Part shown: positions 40,216 through 63,138 of the stretch, in pieces | How the letters are laid out: every line of letters starts with the position of its first letter | How positions within the stretch are numbered: the stretch's first letter is position 1 | Origin: Flagellimonas okinawensis | GTDB taxonomy: Bacteria; Bacteroidota; Bacteroidia; Flavobacteriales; Flavobacteriaceae | Length of the DNA stretch: 64,000 nucleotides | Reading direction: 5' to 3' | Assembly: GCF_029194005.1 (NCBI RefSeq) | Contig: NZ_JARFVA010000002.1 | Span: forward strand, 744,001-808,000 | Notes under the pieces: model-generated | What the model saw: the letters and a program-made list of their open reading frames with translations, nothing else | Databases searched by the model: none | What the model was told of the DNA's origin: nothing | Made by a program: the position numbers and the translations under genes

Positions 40216-40288
<73 letters not shown>

Positions 40289-40680: not shown

Positions 40681-40776
40681 ATGGCAAAGAAGAAGAACAC
40701 GGAATCAATCGTAAAGGACATCAAGAGAAAGACAAGGCGGAAGTTCTCCGTAGAGGAAAAGATCATTTGTCAATGA
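40681..40776 (+). mobile_element. Truncated IS3-family orfA (transposase) remnant
   Basis: ATG at 40681 opens a 31-codon frame, MAKKKNTESIVKDIKRKTRR then KFSVEEKIICQ and a stop. The KRKTRRKFSxEEKI pattern is the start of IS3-type orfA proteins common in Flavobacteriia; the helix-turn-helix and the whole orfB catalytic part are missing. The frame stops exactly where the TraN-like sequence starts, so another sequence has been joined to this IS fragment. Confidence 0.75.
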
Positions 40777-41706: not shown

Positions 41707-44082
41707 ATGTATTCAAAGCACAAATGTCATGGCCTTAATTTATCTTATGGTCAGGACGACTTTAAATTGAAAACTTTTTGCTTAATCGTTCTGTTTCTTT
41801 CAATGGGTCAGTTGCTTGCCCAAGCCCAAGTGCAGCAAAGGCCAAAGGTGGCTTTGGTGCTTAGTGGAGGCGGAGCAAAGGGATTGGCCCACATTCCCCT
41901 TTTACAGGCACTGGATTCCTTGGGAATCGTTCCGGACATTGTAATCGGAAATAGTATGGGCAGTATTGTTGGGGGGCTTTATGCAATGGGCTATTCCGGT
42001 GATAGCATCTCTCGGATTGCCCAAAATGCGGATTGGGATAAGCTCATGGGCGGCACCATTTCTATGCGGAATGTAGGTGTGGAAGAAAAAAGTGAATTCA
42101 ATCGCTATCTGGTCAATTTTGACCAACAAAATGGTAAAATAAAAATGAGTCCCTATATCCTTAACGATCATTATCTTAGGGTGTTTTTATCGGATTTGAC
42201 CTATCCCGTAAATAACATTACCGATTTTGATGACTTACCCATTTCATTTCGTGCAGTGGCCACAGATATCGTGAACGGGAAAGAGGTGATTTTGGACCGT
42301 GGCAGTCTTACTCAGGCATTGAGGTCCAGCATGTCCATACCCGGTGTGTTTTATCCGGTTCCTTATAAGAACACCTTATTGGTGGATGGGGGGGTGCTCA
42401 ACAATTTTCCGGCAAATATAGCTCATGAAATGGGTGCGGATATCATTATCGGTAGCGATGTTGGAGGGGGGATGGAACCCAAAGAGAAATTAAACGATAT
42501 TATGGTGCTTCTTTTTCAAACGGGAATGTTACACAGTAATCTGCGTAATCCAGAGAACAGGGCATTCTGCGATATCCTTTTGGACCACGTTCCAAATCTC
42601 ACATATTCAACTGGTGATTTTAACGATAGTGATGCCATTTATGAAGAGGGTAAAATTGCTACGCTCACCAATATCGATGGACTGTCGGCACTAGCTAAAC
42701 GATTGAAACCATTCCATCATGAAAGACCGCATCTGCCCAAAGTGAAGGATAGTATAGTGCTTGATACCATTATTTATAAACGGATCAGTAAGGAGAATAT
42801 GGCTTTAGTTGAGGCCCGGACCGAACTGGTCGCGCATGAGAAATATGCAAAGAAGGACATACTTGATCGGCTCGACCGTGCCGTGGGGACCACTCTTTTC
42901 AGCCATATAACTTTTGATTCGTACCAAGGAAAAAAATCAGGCCTTGTTCTTAGTGGATTTGAACGATCCAAAAATATCGTAAAGGGATCGCTGCATTATG
43001 ATAGCTATAATGGTGTGGGAATTATTCTGAACCTTACCGGTCGGAATATCCTGGGCCAGGCTTCACGTACTCTTATGACCTTGGATATAGCGGAAGAACC
43101 TCGATTTAGATTACAGCACCAAAAGAACTTTGGATGGAGAAAAAATTGGTGGTGGCGCTCCGAGGCCTATGGCCAATTTACAGAAGAAAGTATCTTTATT
43201 GAGGGACAGGATGTGGACAAATTCCGCTATCGACATTTTATCTTCGATAACCAGCTCAATTTAAACATAACTCCTTTACGAAGCTATTTCGGAATTGGGG
43301 TGAAATATCAAAATGATTATCTGACACCCAGGGTGGACCCCGAAATTGAAGATAACCCCTATGGTGTGGAAGAGTCCAAATTCAATACCATAGAACTTTC
43401 GACCCATTATGTATACAATAGCTTGGATACCCCGTTTTATGCAACCTTTGGGTCATATTTCAGAGGTAGGTTGAGTCGTTCATTGTACAGCAGTGCCAAT
43501 GCATTATTCTACAGACCGGATGCTCCGGACTTCAAAGGGGAGACCAATCTATATAGTAAACTGGAGATGCGGTTTGAAAAAAGGATGTTGATGAATGAAA
43601 GGTTGACTACCATTTTGGGCCTCTCCGGGGGATTATTGTGGGAGGACAAGGATGACGGTGAAGACATTTCCGCCAATGATTATGGAATCGGTGCGGCCTA
43701 CTTCCTTGGCGGTGCCCAAGAACAGCACAGTCCAAGAAATTACGTAATGCCGGGTCTGAAGGAGGGAGAGCTCATCACGAATCAATTTATAAAAGTTAAT
43801 GTTGGGATCCAATACAAGCTCTTTGGCAAAACGTATATCACACCCCATTTGAATCTGGCAGTTGTAGGTTTTGGAGAGGTCGACACATTTCTACAGAACA
43901 TTTTTTCAAACAATAACAATTGGGATGACCGACTGGAAACCAGTATGGTGATGTCCTCGGGTGTCATCTTTTCGAACAATTCCCTGTTGGGACCAATAGA
44001 TATTGATATTTCCTGGATCAATGGTGTCGACAAAATAAGAATGTTTTTAGGGGTAGGCTATCGTTTTAATATTTCCGACTAA
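41707..44082 (+). CDS. Patatin-like phospholipase with C-terminal outer-membrane barrel
   Basis: Type-Vd-like (PlpD/FplA-type) protein: an exported patatin lipase joined to a BamA-type barrel. After the signal segment (LKTFCLIVLFLSMGQLLAQA) come the oxyanion loop SGGGAKG, the nucleophile elbow GNSMG (catalytic Ser) and the DGG motif with catalytic Asp (LLVDGGVLNNFPANIAHEMG). A linker with a POTRA-like part (about 380-450) leads to strands such as GVGIILNLTGRNIL and the final MFLGVGYRFNISD. 791 aa. The ATG at 41707 gives 20 extra residues before the signal; TTG at 41767 would give a standard signal peptide and is an alternative. Predicted substrate: membrane phospholipids. It lies alone, between decayed genes, with its own promoter. 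Confidence 0.88.
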   Translation: MYSKHKCHGLNLSYGQDDFKLKTFCLIVLFLSMGQLLAQAQVQQRPKVALVLSGGGAKGLAHIPLLQALDSLGIVPDIVIGNSMGSIVGGLYAMGYSGDSISRIAQNADWDKLMGGTISMRNVGVEEKSEFNRYLVNFDQQNGKIKMSPYILNDHYLRVFLSDLTYPVNNITDFDDLPISFRAVATDIVNGKEVILDRGSLTQALRSSMSIPGVFYPVPYKNTLLVDGGVLNNFPANIAHEMGADIIIGSDVGGGMEPKEKLNDIMVLLFQTGMLHSNLRNPENRAFCDILLDHVPNLTYSTGDFNDSDAIYEEGKIATLTNIDGLSALAKRLKPFHHERPHLPKVKDSIVLDTIIYKRISKENMALVEARTELVAHEKYAKKDILDRLDRAVGTTLFSHITFDSYQGKKSGLVLSGFERSKNIVKGSLHYDSYNGVGIILNLTGRNILGQASRTLMTLDIAEEPRFRLQHQKNFGWRKNWWWRSEAYGQFTEESIFIEGQDVDKFRYRHFIFDNQLNLNITPLRSYFGIGVKYQNDYLTPRVDPEIEDNPYGVEESKFNTIELSTHYVYNSLDTPFYATFGSYFRGRLSRSLYSSANALFYRPDAPDFKGETNLYSKLEMRFEKRMLMNERLTTILGLSGGLLWEDKDDGEDISANDYGIGAAYFLGGAQEQHSPRNYVMPGLKEGELITNQFIKVNVGIQYKLFGKTYITPHLNLAVVGFGEVDTFLQNIFSNNNNWDDRLETSMVMSSGVIFSNNSLLGPIDIDISWINGVDKIRMFLGVGYRFNISD

Positions 44083-44342
44083 AGGCCGGCTTTTCGGAGG
44101 AGATGGGCAATAATATTTTTATTTGGTTTCCAAATGTCAGGGTACGTGCAAGAATATGGATTTTTGAATGTCTTACGCTGTGGGGATTTGTTGATATTGG
44201 TATATGGGCACCGAAAAATTCAATTCAGAATTCCATGAAGATGTATAGTACCATGAAATGTTCGGCTACATACTTTTCTTCCATTGCTAAATCCTGCATC
44301 ATGTGAGTTTGGTCTTTTAGGCAGAGGTATTGTTGCCTAGAT

Positions 44343-44654
44343 TGCATTGTTTTATGGTCCACTATATTTTTTGTCGGGGATTTGGACATATGGTTGGGGA
44401 ACAGAACCGTTACCGAGTTCTTCCAAGGGAAGAAGGTTGTTGGGTTCTATAATCGATTGTTATGATATTCCCTGGTCCGAAAAGTGGACCGTTTGGAAGT
44501 CTTGCGTGCCAAAAGATGGGCATCCTATCAGGAAATCCCCTTGGAGCCCGTCCATGGGTATGGTGTTCCTATTGGATTCAGGGATAAGGAGATGGTCCGA
44601 TTTGTCCATACGCCTTCTCCCGCAATCCTTCCAAGACCTTGGAAGAAAATGTAA
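44343..44654 (+). pseudogene. Unidentified broken gene
   Basis: One frame reads as ordinary protein apart from a single TGA at 44463: before it IFFVGDLDIWLGNRTVTEFF and QGKKVVGFYNRLL, after it YSLVRKVDRLEVLRAKRWAS, YQEIPLEPVHGYGVPIGFRD and VRFVHTPSPAILPRPWKKM, then TAA. I do not recognise the family. Because it stands near the TraN relic it may come from the same element, but that is only a guess. Confidence 0.35.
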
Positions 44655-44796
44655 GAGGAGCCTATTGCCCAGATTCGTTGAGATGCATTATTTTGGAGTA
44701 GGGGACATCTGGTATACGGGACATAAATAATTGGGTTGTTGTTTAAATCGGTTATTTGGAGGTCACACGTCCTATTTGAATGCTGAAAAAGAAAGA

Positions 44797-44824
44797 CGGG
44801 TTGAATTTATAAAAATCCAACCCG
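44797..44824 (-). terminator. Terminator of the lipocalin-type gene
   Basis: CGGGTTG at 44797-44803 and CAACCCG at 44818-44824, with an extended ATTT/AAAT inner stem, followed on the minus strand by a T-rich run. About 33 bases after the stop of the lipocalin-type gene. Confidence 0.8.
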
Positions 44825-44856
44825 GTCAGACATTTTATGAGGAGATACACGGAGAA

Positions 44857-45870
44857 TCAGAACATTCTGTCCTTGTTCCAGTTGCCCACCATTTCAACAA
44901 GGTTATAGCCTGTTACGGGTTTTCCCCTGAAAGTTCCGGTAATATTGCATAAGCCTTCGTATTTAGGTAAAATGTCAGAAGGTACCTCCTGTTCTTTTTT
45001 GATTGCCCTTACGATCAGTTCAGCCTCCAGTTCGGGTATCTTGACGACCCAATTGGTCGGATAGCGTTGCCCCATAGGGCTTATCCAGAACTCGCTTGCA
45101 GATTCGGCAAGAGGTTCGACATTTGCAACGATATGGGAACCATCCGGTTCTGCCATGGTCACCCAGCTGGATTGCTTTCCATAAAGATAGATATCCCATA
45201 AACCCAATACATCTCCGTTATCGAGTGTAAGGTTCATCCATGTCCAGTACATGTCCTGTTCCTGAAAGGTTCCTTTCATTGGCTTTTCTTTGTTTCCAAA
45301 GAAATCATGGCGCCAGAACCATTGCCTGTCATACCATGTTTTGCCAAAAACCTTATGTGTCTCGCCGTTGAAGTTTAAAGTGCCACTGCCCAGTCCTTTG
45401 GTTACAGAGTATTGCCCTGTGGGAATATTGCCCACAAAATTAAAGACCCCGGTCCCGCCGTTGTAAATAACCTCACCGGGAAATTGCATGTCGAGTTCCA
45501 CCGAACCCCAGTCGAAATTGGCAGAGGCCTTGATGGCGTGCAAATCCCCACTTATTTTGCTATTCGGCATTTCAATGTACATGCTGTCTGTTTCGTATGT
45601 TACCTCTTCCTCCGAATGTATGATCTCATCACTTTTAAAGGTCCCATTATCGATATCGAACACATTGAAAATACTCAGAAATTTTCGTGGAACCCCAGCA
45701 GGTGCCGGTACTTCGAGTTGGTGGATAAGAATGTTGAATTTTCTGCCTTCTTCTGTTTCAACATCGGCAATGGCAAAGAAGGAATTGGTGCCCATCTCGG
45801 GTTTAAAGGCCAAATCACGTTCGGCGTCTATCAAATGGGGGATACTTAATTTTCTTGAACCTGTTTTCAT
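44857..45870 (-). CDS. AttH/CrtC lipocalin-like domain protein
   Basis: A 337-residue protein of the AttH/carotenoid-hydratase-like family, made of two lipocalin-like barrels. Visible family features include NSFFAIADVETEEGRKFNIL, GNIPTGQYSVTKGLGSGTLN and the signature stretch FGKTWYDRQWFWRHDFFGN, followed by WTWMNLTLDNGDVLGLWDIY. Members hydrate or hydrolyse lipophilic compounds, but the activity here is unknown. There is no signal peptide, so it is probably cytoplasmic. The open frame begins at 45933, but a TAnnTTTG box at 45897-45904 lies inside that extension, so ATG 45870 (MKTGSRKLSIPH) is chosen. The Crp-like regulator gene is directly upstream. Confidence 0.8.
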   Translation of the reverse strand: MKTGSRKLSIPHLIDAERDLAFKPEMGTNSFFAIADVETEEGRKFNILIHQLEVPAPAGVPRKFLSIFNVFDIDNGTFKSDEIIHSEEEVTYETDSMYIEMPNSKISGDLHAIKASANFDWGSVELDMQFPGEVIYNGGTGVFNFVGNIPTGQYSVTKGLGSGTLNFNGETHKVFGKTWYDRQWFWRHDFFGNKEKPMKGTFQEQDMYWTWMNLTLDNGDVLGLWDIYLYGKQSSWVTMAEPDGSHIVANVEPLAESASEFWISPMGQRYPTNWVVKIPELEAELIVRAIKKEQEVPSDILPKYEGLCNITGTFRGKPVTGYNLVEMVGNWNKDRMF

Positions 45871-45896
45871 TTTTAATGCTTTTAAAGGGTTATGCT

Positions 45897-45904
45897 CAAA
45901 AGTA
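45897..45904 (-). promoter_or_regulatory. Candidate -7 box of the lipocalin-type gene
   Basis: TACTTTTG on the minus strand, an exact TAnnTTTG match, about 27 bases before ATG 45870. No clear -33 TTTG. It supports the shorter protein start. Confidence 0.45.
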
Positions 45905-45936
45905 AAATGCCCAAGTCCCCCTTTTTTTGACATATA

Positions 45937-46503
45937 TCAAAAAAAAGTATTGACCCTGATCCTGCTCAATGTTTCTTGGGTGATGTTCAAAAGATTGGCA
46001 ATGTGTTGAAGGCTTACCCTTTGAAGAATCTCCGGATACCTTTCGACTAGTATCTTATATTTATTGGAAGCCGTGTTTTCCATGATCCTTATTTTTTCTT
46101 CAAGAAAGATGCAATATTCCTCGGCTACTTTTCTTCTGTAAGTTTCCATTTCCGGGTATTTTTCATAGAGCACTGTCAAATCCTTGTTGGGAATGAGTTC
46201 AATCGTCGAGTGTTCCAGGAATTGGGCGTTGTCAATGGCCGGTTGATTAAAGAAAACACTGGCGGTGGAACCAAAAATGATGTTTTCCAAAATGATGGAA
46301 GTGTTTTTCTCTTTCCCATTTTTATGATAAAATGTCCTCAAGCATCCTTTTGTTATCAAATAAACACTATCGGGAAACTGATTTTCCCTGTATAAAAAAT
46401 CCCCCTTTCTTTTATGGAGCACTCTTATTTTTGATGAAATTTCCCTTTCTATTTCCAGGGGAACGGGTTTCAATTCATTGAATTTTTTGATAAAGCTTGT
46501 CAT
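45937..46503 (-). CDS. Crp/Fnr family transcription regulator
   Basis: A 188-residue cytoplasmic regulator: cyclic-nucleotide-binding-type barrel (about 10-110, with KRKGDFLYRENQFPDSVYLI and GCLRTFYHKNGKEKNTSIIL), a dimer helix, and a short helix-turn-helix at the C-terminus (VSLQHIANLLNITQETLSRI). The usual cAMP-contacting RxS pair is not visible, so the effector is probably not cAMP. ATG 46503 is preferred over the longer frame from 46554. The lipocalin-type gene starts 67 bases after its stop and is the obvious candidate target. Confidence 0.85.
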   Translation of the reverse strand: MTSFIKKFNELKPVPLEIEREISSKIRVLHKRKGDFLYRENQFPDSVYLITKGCLRTFYHKNGKEKNTSIILENIIFGSTASVFFNQPAIDNAQFLEHSTIELIPNKDLTVLYEKYPEMETYRRKVAEEYCIFLEEKIRIMENTASNKYKILVERYPEILQRVSLQHIANLLNITQETLSRIRVNTFF

Positions 46504-46995
46504 ATCCGGTTGTATATATTTATGGCTCGATCCTCGAAGTTGCCATAAGTTCAATTTTTTATAAAAAAACTCTTTTTTTGAATTTGAAAATGTATCCCTG
46601 TTGTTCCATTTGAAATGAATTCGCCATCTGTGTCCGGTTCATGTCGGCAACAGAGGATTCCTTTTGAACGTAAAGTAAAGGGTCTTTTTTGTTTATCGGT
46701 TTATTTCACGATCTGATCATGGATAGCCATGACCTCTGTTTACAAGGATCACTTTACAATTTTAGCTTTGAATGTATAAAATAGTCCTTTTTACCGTTAA
46801 GGAAAAACCACCTTTTTTAGTGACGGTCCAAGAACTCCGTTCAATGCCCTACCCATTGTCCGGTCACTGGACTTGCCTGTTTCGGTGATTGTGTGGTCTT
46901 TCCCATACCTTGCCCCACATGGGTCTCGGTACATCGACTTTTTTCAGGGCTCTAAATTTATGGATAGGACCGGGCATTGATACCATTTGACGAAA

Positions 46996-47028
46996 AAGGC
47001 GCAGCCTACCTGATGAGTACTGCGCCTT
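46996..47028 (-). terminator. Terminator of the phosphatase operon
   Basis: AAGGCGCAG at 46996-47004 pairs with CTGCGCCTT at 47020-47028; on the minus strand TTTTT follows. It is about 255 bases after the metallophosphatase stop, leaving room for the small frame at 47085-47192. Confidence 0.85.
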
Positions 47029-47084
47029 ATCGCAAATTAAACAAACAAACTAATTCAAATCTTTTCTTCTTTTTGCATCAGAAA

Positions 47085-47192
47085 CTATCCATGTGGATAC
47101 TTGCTTTTCAAATAATCGATGAGACCTAGTGATGGGGCATCCCCAATGTTAAGGATAGGTTTCACGGTAAATTGAATTTGGTTCAAAAACAT
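47085..47192 (-). CDS. Possible small protein or gene remnant
   Basis: ATG at 47192 opens 35 codons: MFLNQIQFTVKPILNIGDAP then SLGLIDYLKSKYPHG and a stop. The residue choice looks like real protein, and the frame stays open for about 17 more codons upstream. No family is recognised. It could be a tiny gene in the phosphatase operon, which ends in the terminator just beyond it, or the tail of a lost gene. Confidence 0.25.
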   Translation of the reverse strand: MFLNQIQFTVKPILNIGDAPSLGLIDYLKSKYPHG

Positions 47193-47282
47193 AATGGTTG
47201 AGGGGGAAGCAAAAAGTAATATTGGACATTGGTTTATTGCGCATTAGGTTTCAAACCGCACTTTAATGGTATTTTTTTATGT

Positions 47283-48218
47283 TCATTTAAGTCGGCTTTC
47301 CCATTTATTATCAATGTACTTCCAAGAGATGCTATCATTTTTCACCCGTATGACCATAAACCCTTCTTCATCATAATGTATACCATCACCCCGATCATCT
47401 TTCCTTCTCCAGCTAGGCCTTCCGGCAACGGACCCGCCCGTGATGAAACGTGTCCTGTTCTGAAGGTTGATGTCTTCAACCCAGTGCATATGGCCCTGTA
47501 GGACCAATCTCAAATCATGCTTATGGAACAGCTTTAAAATCTCATCCCTATTATGAATCCAAAGTTCGTTGGGTACTTCTTTGATCTTGTTTTTTGGGTA
47601 CCGTTGATTGTAAGTTGAAATAAGGGGGATGTGGGTGGATATGACTATTGGTGTATTGACATCCAATTGGGAGATGTCTTTTTTTAACCATTCGAGCTGC
47701 TCATCATCAATTAAACCAATATATTTTTGATTCTTTTCTTCGATGGAGCACAATGATATAAAATGCCATCCCTTGTGGTCGAAGGAATAAAATCTTTTTC
47801 CCAAATAACGCTCATACATTCCATATTTATAATCTGGATGATCTTTTTGGATATCACTTTCCTTATAAATCCCAAACAATTCATGGTTACCAATGGTGTT
47901 ATGGACAGGTACATTGAACTGTTTTATAGTATTGCTATAGGTGTGGAACAATGAGTCTGAGCGATTGAAATTGCCCCTAAGTACATCATACACCAAATCG
48001 CCCCCGGTAATCACAAAATCAATATTGAGTTTGTTGACCGTATCGATCACTTTTTGAAAGGCTTCCTGTGCCCCATGTTCGGGTTGCAGGTGGATATCGG
48101 TCACAAAGACAAAGGAAAAATCCTCTTGATCTTTATAAGTTGTGGCGGTTGGCGCAGTGTTTTGGGCATTAATGCCCAATTCAACAAATAGCAGTACTGA
48201 TAAAAATAGGGCTCTCAT
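47283..48218 (-). CDS. Secreted calcineurin-like metallophosphoesterase
   Basis: Exported phosphatase or phosphodiesterase with a two-metal centre. The open frame reaches 48407, but ATG 48218 gives a signal peptide (MRALFLSVLLFVELGINAQ) and lies five bases after the stop of the preceding gene. All metal-site motifs are present: DIH in FVFVTDIHLQPEHG, GDLVYD, GNHE (HNTIGNHELFG), the histidine of VISTHIPL and GHMHW. 311 aa. The substrate is not evident. It is tightly coupled to the PAP-like gene upstream and lies in one operon with a SusC/SusD pair, which hints at scavenging of phosphorylated compounds. Confidence 0.88.
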   Translation of the reverse strand: MRALFLSVLLFVELGINAQNTAPTATTYKDQEDFSFVFVTDIHLQPEHGAQEAFQKVIDTVNKLNIDFVITGGDLVYDVLRGNFNRSDSLFHTYSNTIKQFNVPVHNTIGNHELFGIYKESDIQKDHPDYKYGMYERYLGKRFYSFDHKGWHFISLCSIEEKNQKYIGLIDDEQLEWLKKDISQLDVNTPIVISTHIPLISTYNQRYPKNKIKEVPNELWIHNRDEILKLFHKHDLRLVLQGHMHWVEDINLQNRTRFITGGSVAGRPSWRRKDDRGDGIHYDEEGFMVIRVKNDSISWKYIDNKWESRLK

Positions 48219-48222
48219 GGTT

Positions 48223-49575
48223 CTACTCTTTTTTTCTTTGAAGATATTTGATTCTATCCGCTTCATAGCTTTTGACCAGTTCCCTATCATAGCGCTTTTC
48301 AAAATCCTTGGTGGGAACGAGGGATTCAGCGGGTAGGTTCGGAACTTCTTCAAACTGCAATTCACCATTTGATCTTTTGGTGATGGTAAACGCATCATAT
48401 ACATCACCCAAAACCGTTTTGGATACGTATTTCAATTGGTTTTCGGAAACATGTATTTCCTGATACAGTTGCATTGTGGTACCAGCACGCTCGATCCAAT
48501 CACTGAACTGTATCGCATTTTGATAGGGACCGGCAACGGACACTGCATAGATTGGAAAATCAGCTCCCATCCTACCCCTTGCGTAGAGATGTTCATGTCC
48601 GGTCAATACCATTGGTACCTTATATTTCTCCAACAGTGCCTTGATTTCAGGGAAACGGATATCGGGATTGCGATTTCTTGCCAAACCCGCCATGGCGTGA
48701 TGAAATGTCACGAATATCCAATCCCCATCGAACTCCTTGAGGACCTTTTCCAACCACACATAGGTTTCCTGTTGCTGGGCAGCTGTTATTTTGGCCGAAG
48801 TGTCCAATGAGATGATCCTGATATTGTTATAATCCACATAATAGGTTTGTTCCTCCTGTCCTTTGGGACCATTTTTAGGGAAGGCGAAGTTAAGGTTCCA
48901 AAGGGGTGTGATCTCTTTGGTCTCTTTGGCCACCCATGTATGCTCATGGTTCCCTGGTGTGGCCATAATAGGGATATTTTGAAAGGCCCATCCCCCAGCA
49001 GGGAAAAATTCATTCCAATTTTCGGTGTTCAGACCTCCCCTATGGATCAAGTCTCCGGCAAAGAGCATAAACTTAGCATCCGGGTTGGCCAAAACCGCTT
49101 GTCGCAAGGTTCTGCTTCCCAAGGAGTGGATGTAGCGCTGTACATCACCAAAATATAAAAACTTGAACGGTTCGTTCTGTCCCGTAGCTGTTTTAAATTC
49201 TGACCACTCAGACCATAGGTCCTTATTGCCAACACGATAAGAATACGGGGTATTCGGCTTTAAATTCTGAAGATTTACCGAATGATAGTACCATATCCCA
49301 TCCTCTGATGTATATGATCGGGAAATGGCTTGTACTTTTTTTATGTGCTCTTCAAAAAAAGGAGAGGCTGTGGCTTCCACATATTCAATATAACCTTTTG
49401 GTTCATCGGCTCGCGTCCTCCATGTGACCGCTTGACTGGTTTCTGGGGCAGTCTCCCATGACAGTTTGATATGATGGGGCAACTGTTCCAAAAGACTGTT
49501 GTTCTCTTTTATCTGTCCTTGACAATGGAAGGCAAGGATTAAAAACGGGATCACTAAAGCAATGCTTTTTTTCAT
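48223..49575 (-). CDS. Purple-acid-phosphatase-like metallophosphoesterase with FnIII domain
   Basis: Secreted 450-residue enzyme: signal peptide (MKKSIALVIPFLILAFHCQG), an N-terminal fibronectin-III-like domain (about 30-135, HHIKLSWETAPETSQAVTWR) and a metallophosphoesterase domain with FLYFGDVQ, FAGDLIHRGG, TPGNHEHT, VTFHHAMAG and LTGHEHLYARG. This is the layout of plant-type purple acid phosphatases, but the GDxxY motif that supplies the iron-binding tyrosine reads GDLIH, so the purple Fe(III)-Tyr bond is probably absent. A hairpin separates it from susD upstream. Confidence 0.87.
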   Translation of the reverse strand: MKKSIALVIPFLILAFHCQGQIKENNSLLEQLPHHIKLSWETAPETSQAVTWRTRADEPKGYIEYVEATASPFFEEHIKKVQAISRSYTSEDGIWYYHSVNLQNLKPNTPYSYRVGNKDLWSEWSEFKTATGQNEPFKFLYFGDVQRYIHSLGSRTLRQAVLANPDAKFMLFAGDLIHRGGLNTENWNEFFPAGGWAFQNIPIMATPGNHEHTWVAKETKEITPLWNLNFAFPKNGPKGQEEQTYYVDYNNIRIISLDTSAKITAAQQQETYVWLEKVLKEFDGDWIFVTFHHAMAGLARNRNPDIRFPEIKALLEKYKVPMVLTGHEHLYARGRMGADFPIYAVSVAGPYQNAIQFSDWIERAGTTMQLYQEIHVSENQLKYVSKTVLGDVYDAFTITKRSNGELQFEEVPNLPAESLVPTKDFEKRYDRELVKSYEADRIKYLQRKKE

Positions 49576-49593
49576 TCTACTATGGGATTAAAA

Positions 49594-49621
49594 GCCCCTA
49601 CCTCTATAAGCAAGTAGGGGC
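49594..49621 (-). terminator. Hairpin between susD and the phosphatase genes
   Basis: GCCCCTAC at 49594-49601 and GTAGGGGC at 49614-49621, eight-base stem, followed on the minus strand by only TTTT. Probably a partial terminator or attenuator, in the same place as the hairpin after the binding-protein gene of the beta-glucan locus. Confidence 0.65.
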
Positions 49622-49630
49622 ATTTGTACT

Positions 49631-51292
49631 TTAGAAGCCCGGATTTTGAGGCATCTCTTTCTCTAAATTGGAATCTATGACAGACTGTGGAATGGGAAGT
49701 AATATATCACGCTTCGGGTCAATGGTACTTGATCCGTGGTTGTTGTACTTCATGGTACGTTCGGCCCATTTGCCGGTTCGCAATAGGGTATACCTTCTGG
49801 GCTCTTCGGCCATCAGTTCCCGGGCACGTTCATCCAGTATAAAATCAATGTCAATATCACTTACCGTAATATTGGAAGCATGGCTTCTTGCCCTGAGGAT
49901 GTTGATGGTATTGGCCGCAGCTCCTACATCCCCCAACTTAAATTCCGCCTCGGCTTTGAGCAGATAGGTGTCGGCGGCCCGAAGATAGATCTGATCGTAA
50001 AACGATTCCCTGTTCCCAATGGGATCCACGGGGTCGGCCCAGTCATATTTTCTGCTGAAGGGCCATTCCTCAATACCGTTATGGTCATCGGTGATATCCT
50101 CACTCCAATCCAAATAGATTTTATCCCCATAGTTTTTACCCTCGGGTAGGTTGTCGGCCGGGTAGGGGGCATTTCCTGCCGCGTCCCGGTAAGTGAAGGA
50201 TTTTCGAATGGCATATTCAGAAAAGCGATCATCATTGGGGTCATCAAAATTGTCCAAGGCCCATTTGGTCAAGGAAGAGCGGCCATTTCCATACCCGCCC
50301 CGGTCAGCAGTAACGGTCAAGTCCAGGTCACCACTCCTATACCTCGAGGTATGGTGCATTGCCATAATGGGATATTCCCCGCCACCAAGGACATTGTTCT
50401 TAAACTGGAAAACCCACAAGGCTTCTGAATTTCCTTCTTCACGATTGGTGTTCCCGGCCTTGAACATATCCATAAAGGCAATACCTGCCTGATCCACTTG
50501 CACGCCATAACGTTCGGTGATAAGGGCATAGGCGGGGTTGTTGACCACTTTGTTCGCCCAGAACAGTGTACTGTCCGGTTTGTTCAATGTCAGATAGAGT
50601 TCCGCAAGATAGTGTTGCACTGCTCCTTTGGTGATTCTTCCGGTCAAGGAGCCCTCTTCAGGGATGATGGGTTCAGCAAAGAGAAGGTCTTTGACAACCT
50701 GCTGGCGTACCTCATTTACAGGGGTCCTTTCCCAATCTGTTCTGATGATTCCATCGCTTGATGGATTCAGGTTCAGTGGAACATCGCCCCAAAGATACGA
50801 TAGATGGCGGTAGGCGAATGCCCTTGCTACCCTTGCTTCGGCAAGGATCAGGTTCCTGTTCTCAGTTTCACTCAATTCATTGCCACTCCAATCGATATCC
50901 TCCCTTTCCTCGACATTTTTTATGATTTCATTGGACGAGTTGACAATTTCATATAGCCATAGAAAGACTCCTTCATATACATCATAATCCGGCCTGTTTC
51001 TGGCAGTCCAATCCACCGATACCCGAGAGACCCCGTTGCCGCTGTGGTTGGCGGCAAACATATCGGTGCCGGACATGGTCACATCCGTTATAAGGGAAGA
51101 ACTGGCATTCAATCCTTCCCGTTCATAGCGCATTAGGGAATAAAGACCATTTATTCCCGCTTCCAGCCCAGATAGATCAGAGTACAAATTCTCTGCATAA
51201 ATCACATTGGGCGGATTTTCGTTCAACAGATCGTCACTGCAGCTGCTTATAAGCAATATTGAGCTTACAAGGCATGTTATTAGTTTTTTCAT
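49631..51292 (-). CDS. SusD/RagB family lipoprotein (third locus)
   Basis: 553-residue surface lipoprotein; lipobox LISSC (Cys18). SusD features: NENPPNVIYAENLYSDLSGL, the TPR helix ARAFAYRHLSYLWGDVPLNL, GAVQHYLAELYLTLNKPDST, LRAADTYLLKAEAEFKLGDV and RARELMAEEPRRYTLLRTG. It appears intact, but its SusC partner immediately upstream has lost the N-terminal half, so the pair cannot work as a normal transporter unless another SusC replaces it. Confidence 0.92.
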   Translation of the reverse strand: MKKLITCLVSSILLISSCSDDLLNENPPNVIYAENLYSDLSGLEAGINGLYSLMRYEREGLNASSSLITDVTMSGTDMFAANHSGNGVSRVSVDWTARNRPDYDVYEGVFLWLYEIVNSSNEIIKNVEEREDIDWSGNELSETENRNLILAEARVARAFAYRHLSYLWGDVPLNLNPSSDGIIRTDWERTPVNEVRQQVVKDLLFAEPIIPEEGSLTGRITKGAVQHYLAELYLTLNKPDSTLFWANKVVNNPAYALITERYGVQVDQAGIAFMDMFKAGNTNREEGNSEALWVFQFKNNVLGGGEYPIMAMHHTSRYRSGDLDLTVTADRGGYGNGRSSLTKWALDNFDDPNDDRFSEYAIRKSFTYRDAAGNAPYPADNLPEGKNYGDKIYLDWSEDITDDHNGIEEWPFSRKYDWADPVDPIGNRESFYDQIYLRAADTYLLKAEAEFKLGDVGAAANTINILRARSHASNITVSDIDIDFILDERARELMAEEPRRYTLLRTGKWAERTMKYNNHGSSTIDPKRDILLPIPQSVIDSNLEKEMPQNPGF

Positions 51293-51306
51293 TTTGTATT
51301 TTTTTC

Positions 51307-53007
51307 TTAAAATTCTAGTGTTAAACCAAAGGTGATCTCACGTTGGAGCGGTAGAATCCCGGCTTGGCTACTTGGGAGTTCCAGTTCCGGATCTCCGGCC
51401 GTCCAATCCGTAATGGTGAGCAGGTTTCTACCGGATGCAAACAATTGAAGTTTTTCCAATTTTATTTTCGACAGAACCTTTTTGGGAAAATTATAGGAGA
51501 CCGTAATGTCCTTCAACCTGACAAAACTGGCATCCTCATAGATGGAACCCCCCTTTACCTGATCATTGTTCCTGAAATATTCATTGGTGGGATTGTCCGG
51601 GGTCCACCAGTTCTTTTTTAGGACATTTCGTCTAATTTCAGCAGCGGTATTGTCCCTCAACAGGTTGTTGTGCCTGGTTGCCCCGTGGGATCCTATAAAA
51701 AATACTTCCAAACCAAAGTTCTTATACTGAAATGCATTGCTCAATCCCCAAGTGTATTTAGGGTCTCTCTGCCCAATGATCTGGCGGTCCTTGTCATCCA
51801 GCACCCCATTATTGTCCACATCCTCTATCTTGGCATCACCGGGGACCCTGTCATATACAGCGGCCTCTTCCTCTTCCCCCAATTGCCAGACCCCGATCAT
51901 CTTTTGGTCAAAGTTGACACGTATGGGTTCACCCACGAACCAGGCATTGGCCAAATCATTGATTTCTGACCCGTCTTCCTGTAGATAACCATATAGGGAA
52001 ACTATCTTATTTTTGTTGGTGGCAAAGTTTCCCGATATCTTCCAATTGAAGTCTTGGGTCACCCAGGGGACAACGGATAGGGATAGTTCCAGTCCCCGGG
52101 TTTGTGTTTCGCCGATGTTCTGGGTCACTTGGTTTATTCCATGAACGGATGAGATGGTCCTGTTCAACAATAGATCGGAGGTGTTGGTCTCATACAGGTT
52201 CAGATCACCGAAGACCCTGTTGTTGAAAAGTCCAAAATCCAATCCCAAATTATAGGTTTCACTGGACTCCCATCCCAAATCCTTATCACCAATGACACTT
52301 GGAACATAACCTACCAAGGATTGTTCGCCGGACAAGGTGTTCCTGTCCCGCAACCTGGTGATCGATGAATAGGGATCGACTGCTTGGTTTCCATTGATGC
52401 CCCACGATAACCTTAGTTTTAATTGGTTTATGGTGGTCGAATTTTCCAAGAAAGGTTCCCTCGAAATGTTCCAGCCCAAGGCGACTGAGGGAAAAACACC
52501 CCATTTGTTATCCGGTCCAAAACCGGAAAAACCATCCCGTCTTCCGGTCAAGGTCAACAAATAGGTGTTGTTGAACGAATAATTAAGTCGCAACATTTGT
52601 GAAATGAGCGCGGTACGTTGGTAGTCGTTTTGGGATTCTATGGAAGAGGCTTGGGAAATTCCAAAATAGGTGAATTCGTCATTGGGAAAATTGATTGCCG
52701 TGAGTTCCTCAAAATACTGTTCGTTCTCTTCATAGCTATAGACCCCGGTAAGAAAAACATTGTGCTTGCCAAACTCTTTGTTGAAGGTCAGGATGTTCTC
52801 GACTACATTGTTTTTAAATTCCGTACTGGAAAGATATGCCTGGCCGGAGTTGGCTATACCTACCACCGTGTTGCTCCCGGCATAGGTTTTCCGTTCGGAC
52901 CATCTTCTTCGTATCCCCGTGTTCAATCTATAATTAAGTCCTTTCAAAAATGGGAAGGTTACATTGATATAGTTGTTTGATACGATTTGATTGGAATAAT
53001 CCTCATC
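51307..53007 (-). pseudogene. SusC-type transporter, N-terminal half missing
   Basis: Only the C-terminal barrel half of a SusC protein remains. The frame begins after a TAG at 53008-53010; its first residues, DYSNQIVSNNYINVTFPFLK, already lie in the middle of the barrel, and the usual signal peptide, CarboxypepD-like domain, TonB box and plug are absent. The rest looks normal (LKLRLSWGINGNQAVDPYSS, ARHNNLL-type region near 440, final REITFGLTLEF). A TTG at 52947 is the first possible start, but it would give a 546-residue protein with no signal peptide. Upstream bases show no SusC sequence, so a deletion or rearrangement has removed about 450 codons. Confidence 0.85.
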
Positions 53008-53272
53008 CTAGGGGGTATACTGTATTGGCCTTTTTGATTAAGGGAGCACGTGGGTGGTATGTAACGGATTTGGCCAATGGGCGTAAGTTGCTCTGATAAT
53101 CGATCGTATGTTATCAGAACAGAATGCTCATGTGGGTAAGCCGTAATGACCAATAGGGTCCCAAGGATTTTGGGTCATGGCCCAAGAGGATCCCGACTTT
53201 ATGGCTATTGCCAATGATAGGATCGTTCCATATTGGCCTATTTCTCTTCTCCAGTGGGGGGTAGTTCAGTTA
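53008..53272. other. Boundary region between the decayed SusC and the PP2C operon
   Basis: 265 bases with no recognisable gene. This is the break point of the susC truncation and the end of the decayed stretch that starts after the tRNA. Confidence 0.4.
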
Positions 53273-54031
53273 TCAGGAATTTTTTGATGTTGTTTTCTGT
53301 ATTTTGACTATATACATGGAATAATTGTCTTTTGTCACACCTTTGGCCTTGTTCACTATATATGATTTGATTTTTTCAACGGAAGCTTGTTCTGTACAGC
53401 TCAAGGCGATTATTTCATCGTTGATTGTCTCTAAAATACCATCGGTGCAAAGAAAGAAGAAATCATTTTTCTTGATATCAGTGATGATTTTCTGATCAAT
53501 TCTTGTGGGATAGGTTCCGTTGACGGCCCTGGTAATAATATTTCGTTTGGGATGGGTCAAGGCCTCCTCTTCGGTAATTTCCCCCATTTCCACCATTCCC
53601 TGCACTATACTGTGATCTTTTGTTTGATAAAGGATTTGGCCATCCCGGATGTGGTATGCCCTACTGTCCCCAACCCAACCGATCAATGCCTTTTCATCCT
53701 CATCTGAGATTTTCAAAAAAGTGAGCGTAGTGGCCATGCCCTTCGCTTCGGGATGGGTTTCGAGATATGTGCCCAAATTTTGTTCGACACTTTGCAGGGC
53801 CAAAGGTAAATATGTTTCATCTTCAATATCCTCCATTGGATTTTCAGAGAGATACTTGGAAAATCCTTGACAGGTCAAGGAAGAGGCCACTTCGCCCTTG
53901 GCCTGCCCCCCAACACCATCACATACCATGAACAAACGGGAATCCTCTGTTGGTGTCACGGGGTATATGGCATCCTCGTTTGACTCCCTTAGGCCTATTT
54001 CATTACAATGCACTGGTAGGTGGATCTTCAT
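53273..54031 (-). CDS. PP2C-type protein serine/threonine phosphatase
   Basis: Cytoplasmic metal-dependent phosphatase of 252 aa, the expected opponent of the kinase encoded just before it. PP2C motifs are complete: NEIGLRESNEDAIY (motif with the first metal Asp), FMVCDGVGGQAKGEVASS, GMATTLTFLK, GWVGDSRAYHIRDGQ, FFLCTDGILETI and DNYSMYIV (last metal Asp). The frame could start at TTG 54040, overlapping the kinase stop; ATG 54031, five bases after that stop, is chosen. It is the last gene of the signalling cluster. Confidence 0.92.
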   Translation of the reverse strand: MKIHLPVHCNEIGLRESNEDAIYPVTPTEDSRLFMVCDGVGGQAKGEVASSLTCQGFSKYLSENPMEDIEDETYLPLALQSVEQNLGTYLETHPEAKGMATTLTFLKISDEDEKALIGWVGDSRAYHIRDGQILYQTKDHSIVQGMVEMGEITEEEALTHPKRNIITRAVNGTYPTRIDQKIITDIKKNDFFFLCTDGILETINDEIIALSCTEQASVEKIKSYIVNKAKGVTKDNYSMYIVKIQKTTSKNS

Positions 54032-54036
54032 TTTCT

Positions 54037-56808
54037 TCAATATCGTTTAGCGATAATATCACAGGCATTTTTATACCCCTTCTCACAGGATTTTTGGTAC
54101 CAAGTTTTTGCCAAATAGGTGTTTTTGACCGTTCCAATGCCACTATGGTAGCAAGAGGCCAGATTGTACATGCCGACACTATCCCCATTGGTTGCGGACT
54201 TCTTATATAGTTCAAATGCCTTGTCTAAGTTTTTCGGACCTCCTAGGCCCCTGTCGTACATATAGCCGAGATAACTTTGGGCACTGGCATGATTTCGGTC
54301 AGCCGCTATTTGGAACCATTTTTTGGCAGCATAATAATATTTTCCTTTGTAATACATCACGGCCACTCTATATTGGCTGTGCAGGTCCCCTTGTTCTGCT
54401 GCTTTCAAATACCACTGTGTAGCCTTTGCTTTTTTGTCCTTGCCCAACTTAAGGTTGTAATAAAGATCGCCCAATTTTTTTTGGGCCTGGAGTTGCCCTT
54501 TGGTCGCTGCCTTGAGATACTTTCTTTCGGCTTCCAGATAATCTACCGGTCCAGCTGCCCCGGTTTCCGCCATGTAGCCCAACATATAGTCCGCAGTACT
54601 CATGTCTTGGGCCGCTGCCCTGACAAAAAAATCCTTGGCCTTGATGAGATCCTTCTTTTTTCCTTTACCGTCATAATGCAATCTACCCAAAGCGTACAAA
54701 GCGGAACTTTGATTTTGTTTTGCTGCAAGCTCATAGTATACTATCGCTTCCGATACGTTCGGGTTCCCATCCGCTTCCCCGTACTCAAGGATCTTTCCGG
54801 TCATGTATTGGGAATTTGCATATCCTTTATCAGCGGCCCGTTGGTACCAATCTTTGGCAAGTTTTACATCCTTTTCCACACCCCATCCATCATAGTACAA
54901 AAGACCCATATTGTGCATACCAAAGGTGTTTCCTTTATCAGCGGCCAATTGGAACCAGTTTTTGGCCTCTAGGTAGTTCTTCTCATTGAAATATAAAGTG
55001 CCCAATTCATTTTGAGCCCCCAAATGTCCTTTATCGGCAGCTTTGGTCAACCACTGAACCGACTTTATACGATCTTTTTTGGCCAATACACCATTTTTAT
55101 AGAATATCCCTAAGTTGAACTGGGACAGGAGGTCACCGTTCTCGGCAGCAATTGTATATTGTTCCAGGGCCTTAACGGTATCCCTGGGGACGTATTGACC
55201 GAACCTGTACATGTTGGCCATGCCCCGATATCCCGAATACCTTCCGATGGACGTGCATTTCTCATATCCTTCAAATGCTTCCTTATAGTTCTTTTCTGAT
55301 ACATTGAGGATCGCCAGGTTTTCGATGGCCGCAGGGTGGCCTTTGCTGGAGGCTTTTTCATAGTACAGTTTTGCCTTGCTTGCGTCCTTTTCCATTACAT
55401 AGCCGAAATAGTGCATCAATCCCCTTAGGTTGTTTGCCTCTGGGTTGCCGTCATCACTCAAGGCCACAATGCTGCTCTTTGCCTTTTCATAGAATTTCTT
55501 GGCCTGGACCGTGTCCCTGTCCACACCAAGATTGTTTTGATAGGCCCATCCATGGTTAAAGTTTGCCAGGTCATATCCATCATCAATGGCCCTATCGGCA
55601 TATTCAAACCCTTTTTGATAATCCACATCGGTTCCATAACCATTTTGGTTGAACCTTGACAGAAAATAAAAGGCCTCCCCGGATCCATAGCCTGATGCTT
55701 TTTCATAGGCCTCATAAGCTTCTTTGAACTTCCCTTCTTTGTAAAGGCTCCAGCCGTCTGCCAACAACACATTTATCTTGGTGGAGCGATAAAAGGCATA
55801 TCCCCCATATCCGGCACCCAAGATCAAAACAGTGGCCAACAAAACGGGCCAGGCTTTTTTCTTCTTTTTGGGCTTGGGTTGTGGTGCGGAAAATTGTGTT
55901 TCATTTCCTCCCAAGAACACGGTGCCACTTTCATTGCTTTCCCCATTCACTTCGCGGATGAAATCGGAAACGGAGGCATACCTATCCGAAGCATTTTTCT
56001 GCAAACAAGTCTTTATGCAATTCTTAAATCTTTCGGGCACCCCGGAATAATTGGGCTCTTCCCCAACGATACCATCCCGAATGAGTTCATAGTCCTTCTT
56101 GTCATGTCCAAAAGGCAACTTTCCGGTCAATATTTTGTAGAACATGATGCCAAGGGCCCAGATATCGGTACGCTCACTGATATCCCCATTCAGTCCGAAT
56201 TTCTTTTTAAAGAATTGCTCCGGAGCCATGTAGTGAGGTGTTCCCACACCTTCGGTCATGGACTGTTGTATGGTCTTGTCGGATAGAATATCCTGACTGA
56301 TCCCAAAATCGGTCACCTTTGAAACGATGTTCCCCTTTCGGTCTTTTGAAAACAGTACATTTCCAGGTTTTAAATCCCTGTGGACAATGCCCTGTTTGTG
56401 GAGATAATCCACCGCTTGGGCCACTTCCACAATAATGTTCTTCCCTTCTTCCAAAGAGAGCTTTCGGTGTATCGCTTGGCCCAAGGTTCCTTCACCGGCA
56501 TACTCTATGATCAACACAGGGTAATTCACGTTTCTGCCCATGGCATCCGTGTGGGTGATATATTCCAGACCATAATAGGTGATAAGATGGGTATGTGACA
56601 GCCCATCTATTTTGGAAAACTCCTGTTCCAAGCTGTATTTTTTCTGTCCAGTGCTCCCGGATGTACCTCTTGAAACAGCTTCTTTATAGATTTTGAGGGC
56701 CACATATCTTCCTTCGGCATTGAGGTCCTTGGCCCTGAACACTTCGGCGAACCCGCCCTCAGCTATAAGGTCTTTTTCTGGATCCCACTGGTAATGTGAT
56801 AGTTTCAT
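54037..56808 (-). CDS. Transmembrane Hanks-type Ser/Thr kinase with Sel1 repeats
   Basis: 923-residue kinase spanning the inner membrane. The N-terminal catalytic domain (1-285) has all key residues: glycine-loop EGGFAEVFRAKD, Lys39 (VALKIY), HRDLKPGN with Asp145, DFG at 167-169 and APE at 195-197, so it should be active. A juxtamembrane tail (290-318) contains TVFLGGNETQFS, then a helix at 319-340 (WPVLLATVLILGAGYGGYAF). Residues 350-920 are about 15 Sel1 repeats (AxxGxxxAxxxLGxxYxxG type), outside the cytoplasm, a protein-binding scaffold. Upstream is a second Sel1 protein, downstream the PP2C phosphatase. Sensing by the Sel1 part is inference. Confidence 0.93.
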   Translation of the reverse strand: MKLSHYQWDPEKDLIAEGGFAEVFRAKDLNAEGRYVALKIYKEAVSRGTSGSTGQKKYSLEQEFSKIDGLSHTHLITYYGLEYITHTDAMGRNVNYPVLIIEYAGEGTLGQAIHRKLSLEEGKNIIVEVAQAVDYLHKQGIVHRDLKPGNVLFSKDRKGNIVSKVTDFGISQDILSDKTIQQSMTEGVGTPHYMAPEQFFKKKFGLNGDISERTDIWALGIMFYKILTGKLPFGHDKKDYELIRDGIVGEEPNYSGVPERFKNCIKTCLQKNASDRYASVSDFIREVNGESNESGTVFLGGNETQFSAPQPKPKKKKKAWPVLLATVLILGAGYGGYAFYRSTKINVLLADGWSLYKEGKFKEAYEAYEKASGYGSGEAFYFLSRFNQNGYGTDVDYQKGFEYADRAIDDGYDLANFNHGWAYQNNLGVDRDTVQAKKFYEKAKSSIVALSDDGNPEANNLRGLMHYFGYVMEKDASKAKLYYEKASSKGHPAAIENLAILNVSEKNYKEAFEGYEKCTSIGRYSGYRGMANMYRFGQYVPRDTVKALEQYTIAAENGDLLSQFNLGIFYKNGVLAKKDRIKSVQWLTKAADKGHLGAQNELGTLYFNEKNYLEAKNWFQLAADKGNTFGMHNMGLLYYDGWGVEKDVKLAKDWYQRAADKGYANSQYMTGKILEYGEADGNPNVSEAIVYYELAAKQNQSSALYALGRLHYDGKGKKKDLIKAKDFFVRAAAQDMSTADYMLGYMAETGAAGPVDYLEAERKYLKAATKGQLQAQKKLGDLYYNLKLGKDKKAKATQWYLKAAEQGDLHSQYRVAVMYYKGKYYYAAKKWFQIAADRNHASAQSYLGYMYDRGLGGPKNLDKAFELYKKSATNGDSVGMYNLASCYHSGIGTVKNTYLAKTWYQKSCEKGYKNACDIIAKRY

Positions 56809-56855
56809 AATGGTCAGTGTAGTCGAATTTGGTTACTGTTTGGTGTTGATTTTAA

Positions 56856-57629
56856 TTAACTGGCCTGTTGTATATGGGTCACCATTTTGCAGGCATCGGC
56901 ATGTCCCTGATCACAGGCCTTTTTGTACCAAGCCTCGGCGCTGCCAAGGTCTTTGGTTACTTCACTGCCATTGTAATAGAGGTTTCCCAGTGTTACATTG
57001 GCATCAACATATCCTAGTTTGGAGGCTTTTTTCAGAAATTCCATGGCCTTGTCCACATTCTTCTCGGTACCCTGGGCCGAGAGATGCATGACCCCAAGGT
57101 TGAACACGGCCGGACCATATTCTTTTTTGGCCGATTTTTCAAAATAGCGCATGGCCTTTGGGTAATTTACCGGAGTGTTCTTGCCGAAATAATATTTACA
57201 TCCTCGTGCAAAAAGGGCTTCTTTATTCTTTGGGAAGAACCAAATTATGGCCAGAACGGCAAGCAGTATCCATAGGGCATATCCCCATAGCCATTCAGTG
57301 AATTCTATTTTATAGGGTGGAAGGGGAGTGGGCAAAGCTCCGCTGGCCTGAAATTTTTTTATCTGCTCTTCATCCAGGTCATAATAGGTATTGATACTTC
57401 CTTTTACCCCCAAAACATAACCATCGTCCGTCATGTAGGCCCCCATAAAAATGTACAGGGAAGTTGTTTTGTGGGCAAGATAAAGGTCTTCGCCATTGGC
57501 ACCTTTAATATCGACGTCAGTAATTTTATGGATTCGTTCGCTTTTTCCAAAAAGTCCTCCGATACGTCTTGCAGATGCAAGGTTGGGAACCAAGGAAAGC
57601 AAGGCGATCAGTAGTAGTAATTTTTTCAT
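56856..57629 (-). CDS. Membrane protein with C-terminal Sel1 repeats
   Basis: 257 residues: signal peptide (MKKLLLLIALLSLVPNLASA), an unrecognised N-terminal domain (about 20-105, EDLYLAHKTTSLYIFMGAYM), a membrane helix (WLWGYALWILLAVLAIIWFF, about 112-132), then three or four Sel1 repeats (YPKAMRYFEKSAKKEYGPAV, NVDKAMEFLKKASKLGYVDA, AEAWYKKACDQGHADACK). With a cleaved signal and one helix, the repeats would face the cytoplasm. The final repeat closely resembles the last one of the kinase (YQKSCEKGYKNACDIIAK), so the two genes may share an ancestor. It precedes the kinase by 47 bases. Confidence 0.8.
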   Translation of the reverse strand: MKKLLLLIALLSLVPNLASARRIGGLFGKSERIHKITDVDIKGANGEDLYLAHKTTSLYIFMGAYMTDDGYVLGVKGSINTYYDLDEEQIKKFQASGALPTPLPPYKIEFTEWLWGYALWILLAVLAIIWFFPKNKEALFARGCKYYFGKNTPVNYPKAMRYFEKSAKKEYGPAVFNLGVMHLSAQGTEKNVDKAMEFLKKASKLGYVDANVTLGNLYYNGSEVTKDLGSAEAWYKKACDQGHADACKMVTHIQQAS

Positions 57630-57806
57630 TTTGTGATGAAGTGTTAAGGTTGAAAGTAATGATATATCTTCTTGTACCTGAACCTATTCGACAGTTAGCA
57701 TTAAAAATAGGTATATGAAACTTTTTATGCCAACATTTTTAGACCTTGGTGTCAAATATGTTTTGGATTTATGAAATAGCCATATCGTGACTGGGTTATT
57801 TACGGA

Positions 57807-58142
57807 TTATTCAGCCTTGGTTGGCAGTCTAACCGCAATGTTGTTTTCTCCCATGGAGGTTACCTGAAAAGGCCCCCTTACATTTTCGGATAACTCTTGC
57901 CAAATGCTCCCCACTTTTTCAACGGTTTCCTTGGCACCTTCAATGGTGCTGTCAATACCCTCCACCGTTTGGTCAATGTCTTTGCTGGTTTTCTGGACAG
58001 TTTGGTCCACTTGATCTACTTGTTCCGCAGTCTTAGCGATTGTTCCCCGGTCTCTTCTTTTAGTGATTTCTGAACTTTGGGCGCTTACAAAACCGCAAAA
58101 CAAGCTAATAAGAATAATGGTGTGTACTTTTTTGGATGTCAT
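57807..58142 (-). CDS. Small exported coiled-coil protein
   Basis: Unrecognised 111-residue protein with a signal peptide (KKVHTIILISLFCGFVSAQ). The centre (about 30-85) is a regular helix with repeated D/E-x-x-V-x-x-I/V pattern (VDQVDQTVQKTSKDIDQTVE, GIDSTIEGAKETVEKVG), probably a coiled coil. The C-terminus is a short beta-like stretch (GPFQVTSMGENNIAVRLPTK). It lies 77 bases after the anti-sigma-like gene and 177 before the Sel1 gene, inside the signalling cluster. A role as periplasmic partner of the Sel1 proteins is possible but unproven. Confidence 0.6.
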   Translation of the reverse strand: MTSKKVHTIILISLFCGFVSAQSSEITKRRDRGTIAKTAEQVDQVDQTVQKTSKDIDQTVEGIDSTIEGAKETVEKVGSIWQELSENVRGPFQVTSMGENNIAVRLPTKAE

Positions 58143-58219
58143 TTTTAATCGTTTTGGTTATACTTTCTATGGGTATATAACCGCAGATTGGCGATGTCAT
58201 CTTTTTTTGATGATTTTTT

Positions 58220-59335: not shown

Positions 59336-59337
59336 GG

Positions 59338-59898: not shown

Positions 59899-59917
59899 CA
59901 AGGTTTTTCTGAAATGG

Positions 59918-63137: not shown

Positions 63138-63138
63138 T

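Follow-up and report, generated by a model that had tools for sequence, protein, structure and literature searches.

The closest described counterparts of the locus discussed here are the phosphate utilisation systems (PUS) of Flavobacterium johnsoniae. According to excerpts of the published account (PMC8115612), phosphate depletion induces PUSI, which comprises a SusCD transporter pair, two phosphodiesterases and an extracytoplasmic function (ECF) sigma factor; one of these phosphodiesterases is listed as Metallophos, an enzyme annotated CpdA is present in PUSI, and an ECF sigma factor or FecR gene is listed for PUSI, PUSII and PUSIII. Here we examine a locus in a 64,000-nucleotide stretch of the genome of Flagellimonas (Muricauda) okinawensis 81s02 (hereafter "the window": contig C7, 744001-808000, of assembly G000, which has 4,020,037 bases in 14 contigs). 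On the minus strand, between positions 47283 and 53009, lie the 3′ part of a susC gene, a susD gene, a gene for a purple acid phosphatase (PAP)-like enzyme and a gene for a second calcineurin-type phosphoesterase, which we call the metallophosphoesterase (MPE). We think that this locus is probably a TonB-driven phosphoester-scavenging system of the PUS type, with a history that includes sharing within a chromosomal block, a swap of the regulator and a later deletion.

How does this locus compare with the described systems? SusCD genes are clustered with phosphoesterases (the SusC being a fragment in the window and intact in five relatives), carbohydrate-active enzymes are absent from the cluster, and an ECF/FecR regulator is present in the relatives and deleted in the window. 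The first-pass annotation of the window, which had proposed scavenging of phospho-compounds, suggested looking for relatives with an intact SusC beside the same two phosphoesterases. Five such relatives were located (M. yonaguniensis, F. oceanensis 40DY170, Maribacter sp. PR1, Flavobacteriaceae F08102 and a genome designated G179); all have the intact order ECF-FecR-SusC-SusD-PAP-like enzyme-MPE, and in none of the five do the six genes include a glycosidase, another carbohydrate-active enzyme or a polysaccharide lyase. The genes flanking the intact loci, read from open reading frames and Pfam-scanned in part, differ from one locus to another. The features of the window are as follows.

47283..48218, minus strand: MPE, a calcineurin-type metallophosphoesterase of 311 amino acids (Metallophos, 2.4e-14, Pfam), with all five metal-binding motifs present
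48223..49575, minus strand: PAP-like enzyme of 450 amino acids, with a PAP N-terminal domain and Metallophos (Pfam)
49594..49621, minus strand: terminator-like hairpin of 10 pairs between susD and the PAP-like gene (consensus match only)
49631..51292, minus strand: susD-like surface lipoprotein of 553 amino acids (SusD_RagB, 8.6e-31, Pfam)
51307..53009, minus strand: susC 3′ part, the final 566 of 1,089 ancestral codons (TIGR04056 and comparison with an intact copy)
53009..53010: junction of a 3,808-bp deletion, with a one-base overlap (comparison with M. yonaguniensis)
40213..64000: the window's part of a shared block of ~83 kb, 99.95-100% identical to M. yonaguniensis 334s03

The cluster runs in one direction and lacks a glycoside hydrolase, as first annotated, but the spacings, from susC to the last gene, are 14, 55 and 4 bases rather than the 8 to 60 originally given. 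Pfam finds Metallophos on 47286-48218, Pur_ac_phosph_N and Metallophos on 48226-49575, and SusD_RagB and SusD-like_3 on 49634-51292. It calls no family on the SusC fragment, which matches the NCBIfam model TIGR04056 above its cut-off at model positions 427-981 of 981. SusC homology extends to 53009, where the frame meets a TAG (53010-53008) at the deletion junction, and the fragment lacks a signal peptide, the STN-like domain, the CarboxypepD_reg domain and the plug. The MPE gene most likely starts at the ATG at 48218, after which a signal-peptide-like stretch follows; read from sequence, signal-peptide-like starts are also seen in the intact SusC proteins of the relatives, and the SusD start is lipoprotein-like. 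The hairpin at 49594..49621 may lower expression of the downstream enzyme genes. Terminator-like sites in the region number seven, not above shuffled sequences (mean 9.1).

M. yonaguniensis carries an intact copy of the locus and is otherwise 99.99% identical around the break: one base differs in the 12,124 bases leading to 53009 and none in the next 3,070, and between those stretches 3,808 bases are absent from M. okinawensis, with no shared 12-mer within 300 bases of either end of the deletion. The deleted DNA encodes the first 523 codons of the 1,089-amino-acid SusC, the FecR anti-sigma factor and the ECF sigma factor. A SusC frameshift or slow decay is ruled out by this one clean deletion; relocation of the missing half, or a reversible inversion, is ruled out by a search for the deleted DNA across the rest of the assembly, which returned only six short matches at 70-83% identity, each within another SusC gene. 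In other words, the SusC is indeed broken, with only its 3′ part remaining, but the earlier description of the locus as decaying does not hold: apart from the single deletion, both the locus and the genes around it match the intact copy at 99.99-100% identity, and so the "decay" is one fresh deletion and not a gradual process. The accompanying suggestion that the strain may use another SusC is unlikely, because the genome's other SusC proteins reach at most 35-36% identity to the fragment.

Uptake should thus be dead in M. okinawensis, with the susD and enzyme genes intact; SusD and both enzymes are unchanged. These genes now lie downstream of a kinase-PP2C pair on the same strand, and since the terminator scan gave no minus-strand terminator between the PP2C gene and the junction, read-through from the kinase/phosphatase operon into the remaining genes is possible. 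The minus-strand genes at window positions 53273-64029 code for a PP2C phosphatase and a Ser/Thr kinase with Sel1 repeats and, judged by eye, for what look like an FHA protein and a sigma factor.

Near identity to M. yonaguniensis extends well beyond the locus. For M. okinawensis 81s02 and M. yonaguniensis 334s03, excerpts of the species description give average nucleotide identities (ANI) of 81.4-81.5% (ANIb) and 85.5-85.6% (ANIm) (PMC10301316). To the left of the locus, alignable sequence is 75-90% identical between the two genomes; ~18.4-30.2 kb of the window does not align, and window positions 30244-40250 are 80% identical. At 40213, just to the right of a terminator-like hairpin seen by eye, identity leaps to almost 100% and continues to the ends of both contigs; right of the deletion, 55,600 aligned bases contain 8 mismatches and three gaps. 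Contig C4 continues the identity over 1,636 bases (0 mismatches) and 12,904 bases (2 mismatches), between which lies a second difference (C4 reverse complement 2112-2115), where 8,351 bases of M. yonaguniensis (G013:C6 1637-9987) are absent and two extra junction bases are found. C7 and C4 would be connected within the shared block. The total is 11 single-base differences in ~82 kb aligned. This sharp onset of identity at 40213, despite an ANI of 81-86%, places the locus within a recently shared chromosomal block, and the comparison is best read as a recent transfer of that block, with the SusC deletion later still. No conjugation genes were recognised, by eye and without a family search, among the open reading frames from 40 kb to the contig end, where the genes are of chromosomal type.

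Could an assembly artefact, or cross-contamination between two genomes of one laboratory, instead account for the identical block and for the absence of half of SusC? Both genomes do come from the same study (PMC10301316, seen in excerpts), near identity over ~83 kb is surprising for species at 81-86% ANI, and a 603-bp repeat, also found near window position 44790 and at the end of C4, terminates both contigs. We nevertheless regard an artefact as very improbable: a contig of 853 kb in one assembly and of 969 kb in the other joins the block to that species' own left flank (80% identical between the two), the stated coverage is 347x and 294x according to the same excerpts (PMC10301316), and the copies are distinct molecules, separated by 11 single-base changes, three gaps and two larger absences. 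Window positions 44790-46021 and the ends of C7 and C4 correspond to a CrtC/Lipocalin_9 gene region that occurs in several copies (95%, 73%) and breaks both assemblies at the same place.

Beyond this pair of species, the locus is rare and patchily distributed. The PAP-like enzyme is found at an identity of at least 78% in 2 of 35 same-genus genomes, in one genome besides its own in a sample of 397 genomes of the family, and at four loci (two of them already in the genus set) in a pattern-based scan of 84,980 species, which detects close relatives only. The Maribacter and Muricauda locus genes are 80-94% identical, and this identity, together with the patchy distribution, fits horizontal movement; the data would fit a cassette that moves between genera.

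The regulators of the five intact loci fall into two groups. M. yonaguniensis, F. oceanensis and PR1 form the first, with 75-81% identity among their sigma factors and 71-77% among their FecR proteins, and F08102 and G179, which share 71% (sigma) and 60% (FecR), form the second; between the two groups, these values are 29-31% and 29-32%. The first 120 SusC residues of F08102 and G179 are likewise only 20-23% identical to those of M. yonaguniensis, whereas from residue 241 onward SusC is 67-90% identical between the groups (per 60-residue bin) and SusD, the PAP-like enzyme and MPE are 76-88% identical; taken together, what lies outside the input module is 72-88% identical. G179 encodes two other FecR proteins that are 47-48% identical to the M. 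yonaguniensis FecR and hence closer to it than the FecR of its own orthologous locus. At E values of 1e-45 or better, the G179 FecR has matches in 7 of 189 family genomes (its own included) and the M. yonaguniensis FecR in 54 of 189. Going by these identities, a crossover inside susC that swapped the whole input module would explain the pattern, with fast co-divergence as the weaker alternative, and the regulator module appears to have been exchanged at least once. An N-terminal STN domain was matched in four of five SusC proteins tested (E values between 0.0013 and 2.5e-5, each short of the Pfam cut-off) and not in that of F08102.

Putting these observations together, we tentatively suggest that a phosphoester cassette (SusCD, the PAP-like enzyme and MPE) may be spreading among marine Flavobacteriaceae, and that the ECF-FecR-SusC signalling domain may be exchanged as a unit inside susC, such that the same nutrient would come under different sensors. 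In M. okinawensis, the input module and the plug would have been deleted together, and susD and the enzyme genes left below a kinase/phosphatase operon.

What might the two enzymes do? The metal-binding motifs of both are conserved across the five intact orthologues; those kept in MPE are DIH or DVH, GGDLV, GNHE, THIP, and GHMH or GHLH. In true PAPs, a tyrosine ligand is what makes the enzymes purple. Alignment to kidney bean PAP (1kbp) places His178 of the PAP-like enzyme where true PAPs have this Tyr; the corresponding motif, GDLIHRG, is found in all five orthologues, and Asn occupies the Tyr position in all nine of the more distant relatives aligned.

In the phosphoester-scavenging mechanism that we favour, the ECF sigma factor and the FecR anti-sigma factor, signalled via the STN-like domain at the SusC N-terminus, would turn on SusC-SusD, and the transporter pair would import a phosphate ester or a phosphodiester through the outer membrane. 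Cleavage would then fall to the PAP-like enzyme, at the outer membrane or in the periplasm, and to a periplasmic MPE; the two would probably attack first a diester and then a monoester, or else two different esters, and would free phosphate together with a carbon- or nitrogen-bearing moiety. The locus would have arrived in, or been shared through, the recent ~83-kb block, before the later 3.8-kb deletion took both regulator genes (sigma and anti-sigma factor) and the N-terminal half of SusC. Accordant arrangements are seen elsewhere. For example, a genome designated G254 has the same gene order with a different SusD family (PAP 39% and MPE 25% identical), ECF-FecR-TonB receptor-PAP sets are present in G354 and G193, and F. 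oceanensis carries, beside its intact locus, a second SusC-SusD-MPE-EEP set with a PF01663 phosphodiesterase adjoining its SusC. The scavenging of phospho-compounds originally proposed for this locus is partly supported, in that the phosphoesterase pair is constant in five intact loci and the architecture is PUS-like. Intact homologous loci with glycosidases and without the phosphatases, which the first-pass annotation had named as evidence against it, were not seen among the five; its accessory idea of gradual decay is not supported, and that of a substitute SusC is unlikely.

Are phosphoesters, however, the nutrient that is sought, or are they decorations on a sugar? A phosphorylated or phosphodiester-bridged glycan, used as a carbon source, is a serious rival, if in our judgement an unlikely one: the phosphoesterases would uncap or split imported oligosaccharides, glycosidases encoded elsewhere would finish the job, and the regulator would sense the glycan and not phosphate. 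ECF/FecR control does usually sense an imported substrate, a point that favours a glycan; the F. johnsoniae PUS loci, however, also have ECF or FecR genes and yet are induced by phosphate depletion, according to the excerpts cited above (PMC8115612). The nearest non-orthologous SusCD pair (51%/54% identical; locus L062, G200 5424-14291) stands beside two NAGPA phosphodiester glycosidases, a SASA acetylesterase and an amidohydrolase, a neighbourhood that can be counted for either reading, the phosphodiester glycosidases being in favour of phosphoesters as well. That G200 region may itself serve phosphodiester-linked glycans. In G193, the gene after a PAP relative is GH43-like, with a score below the Pfam cut-off. 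Several further results weigh against phosphoester scavenging. PAP paralogues (36-40% identical) close a SusCD-GH92 locus in G000 and in M. yonaguniensis (G013), and of six loci with a SusD at 36-45% identity, four of which were scanned, three carry sulfatase or GH2 genes (Pfam) and one a DUF4886 protein; these distant SusD loci and GH92-linked paralogues are what make a phosphorylated glycan possible. Structure prediction for both enzymes, with only four sequences, gave mean pLDDT values of 44.5 and 55.2, which are of low confidence. SusC is only 29-32% identical to the SusC proteins beside PI-PLC genes, and SusD is weakly similar. Finally, the upstream Pho-box that the first-pass annotation had suggested looking for was not found beyond chance: in ten regions upstream of the ECF gene or susC in the five intact loci, the E. 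coli-type consensus, which may not apply here, gave one match with four mismatches, no more than shuffled sequences. On the other side, the six genes contain no glycosidase in all five intact loci, while the flanking genes vary by locus, which argues against a glycan. The SusCD-GH92-PAP locus (L031, L036) occurs in both Muricauda genomes, with a DUF218 gene in G013 (Pfam), and is a possible phosphomannan locus; in G000 it lies on contig C14, which by eye also carries a conjugation-like gene set.

Import of nucleotides, cyclic nucleotides or nucleic-acid fragments, with MPE as a cyclic nucleotide phosphodiesterase of the CpdA/SpdA type and the PAP-like enzyme as a nucleotidase, strikes us as more improbable still. 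MPE is weakly similar to the SpdA and CpdA NCBIfam models, although far below cut-off, the PAP-like enzyme has a weak match to diphosphonucleotide phosphatase 1 (3zk4), the neighbouring F. oceanensis set includes an EEP-family gene, and PUSI, as excerpted, includes the enzyme annotated as CpdA (PMC8115612). These similarities are superfamily-wide, however, and the six genes include neither a nuclease nor a nucleoside gene.

The relationship to PUSI can be made more precise through its phosphatidylinositol-specific phospholipase C (PI-PLC, PF16670), which is present in 31 of 397 family genomes and absent from G000. We compared one PI-PLC locus from each of 16 of these 31 genomes, which are PUSI-like loci and not that of F. 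johnsoniae itself. Seven of the 16 have a SusC in the 29-32% identity range, the PI-PLC gene adjoining the SusCD set or its regulators in six and being separated from it by two GH92-like genes in the seventh; the remaining nine show GH92-like matches, SusD matches, both or neither. Judged from these identities, the locus resembles PUS without being orthologous to PUSI-like loci. In two of the PUSI-like loci (L096 and L084), SusCD, PI-PLC and a Metallophos protein of 604-649 amino acids are encoded side by side, with the Metallophos gene on the other strand in L084. Among the matches listed from the open-access literature, we recognised, by title and the start of the abstract, no description of a PAP-SusCD locus or of the present one.

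If our reading is true, the small set of SusCD systems known for organic phosphorus would gain a PAP-type member, and the idea would be extended from soil Flavobacterium to bacteria of marine sediments. Two opportunities present themselves: five orthologous loci with two unrelated signalling modules constitute a natural test of the exchange of a SusC signalling domain and its sigma/anti-sigma pair between transporters, and the intact and deleted copies in near-identical blocks constitute a ready natural knockout for finding the substrate.

In closing, each part of this locus has a familiar cousin from which it also departs. The PAP-like enzyme resembles purple acid phosphatases such as that of kidney bean (1kbp) in its PAP N-terminal and metallophosphoesterase domains and in its GD, GD, GNHE, HH and GHxH motifs, but lacks the Tyr ligand of the canonical GDxxY motif, with His in its place in the five orthologues. 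The SusC-SusD core and ECF/FecR regulation are those of SusCD polysaccharide utilisation loci, and some distant SusCD relatives do adjoin sulfatases or glycosidases; in contrast to such loci, the six genes lack a carbohydrate-active enzyme in all five intact versions. As in FecIRA-type cell-surface signalling, the intact locus combines an ECF sigma factor, a FecR anti-sigma factor and a TonB transducer with a putative N-terminal STN-like extension, whereas M. okinawensis has lost all three parts; across genomes, the same uptake module is paired with one or the other of two unrelated signalling versions. The likeness to the F. johnsoniae systems PUSI and PUSII (PusCD1 and PusCD2), as excerpted, lies in the combination of SusCD with an ECF or FecR regulator and with phosphoesterases in place of glycosidases, and the difference lies in the enzyme: PI-PLC in PUSI, PhoA in PUSII and a PAP-like enzyme here.

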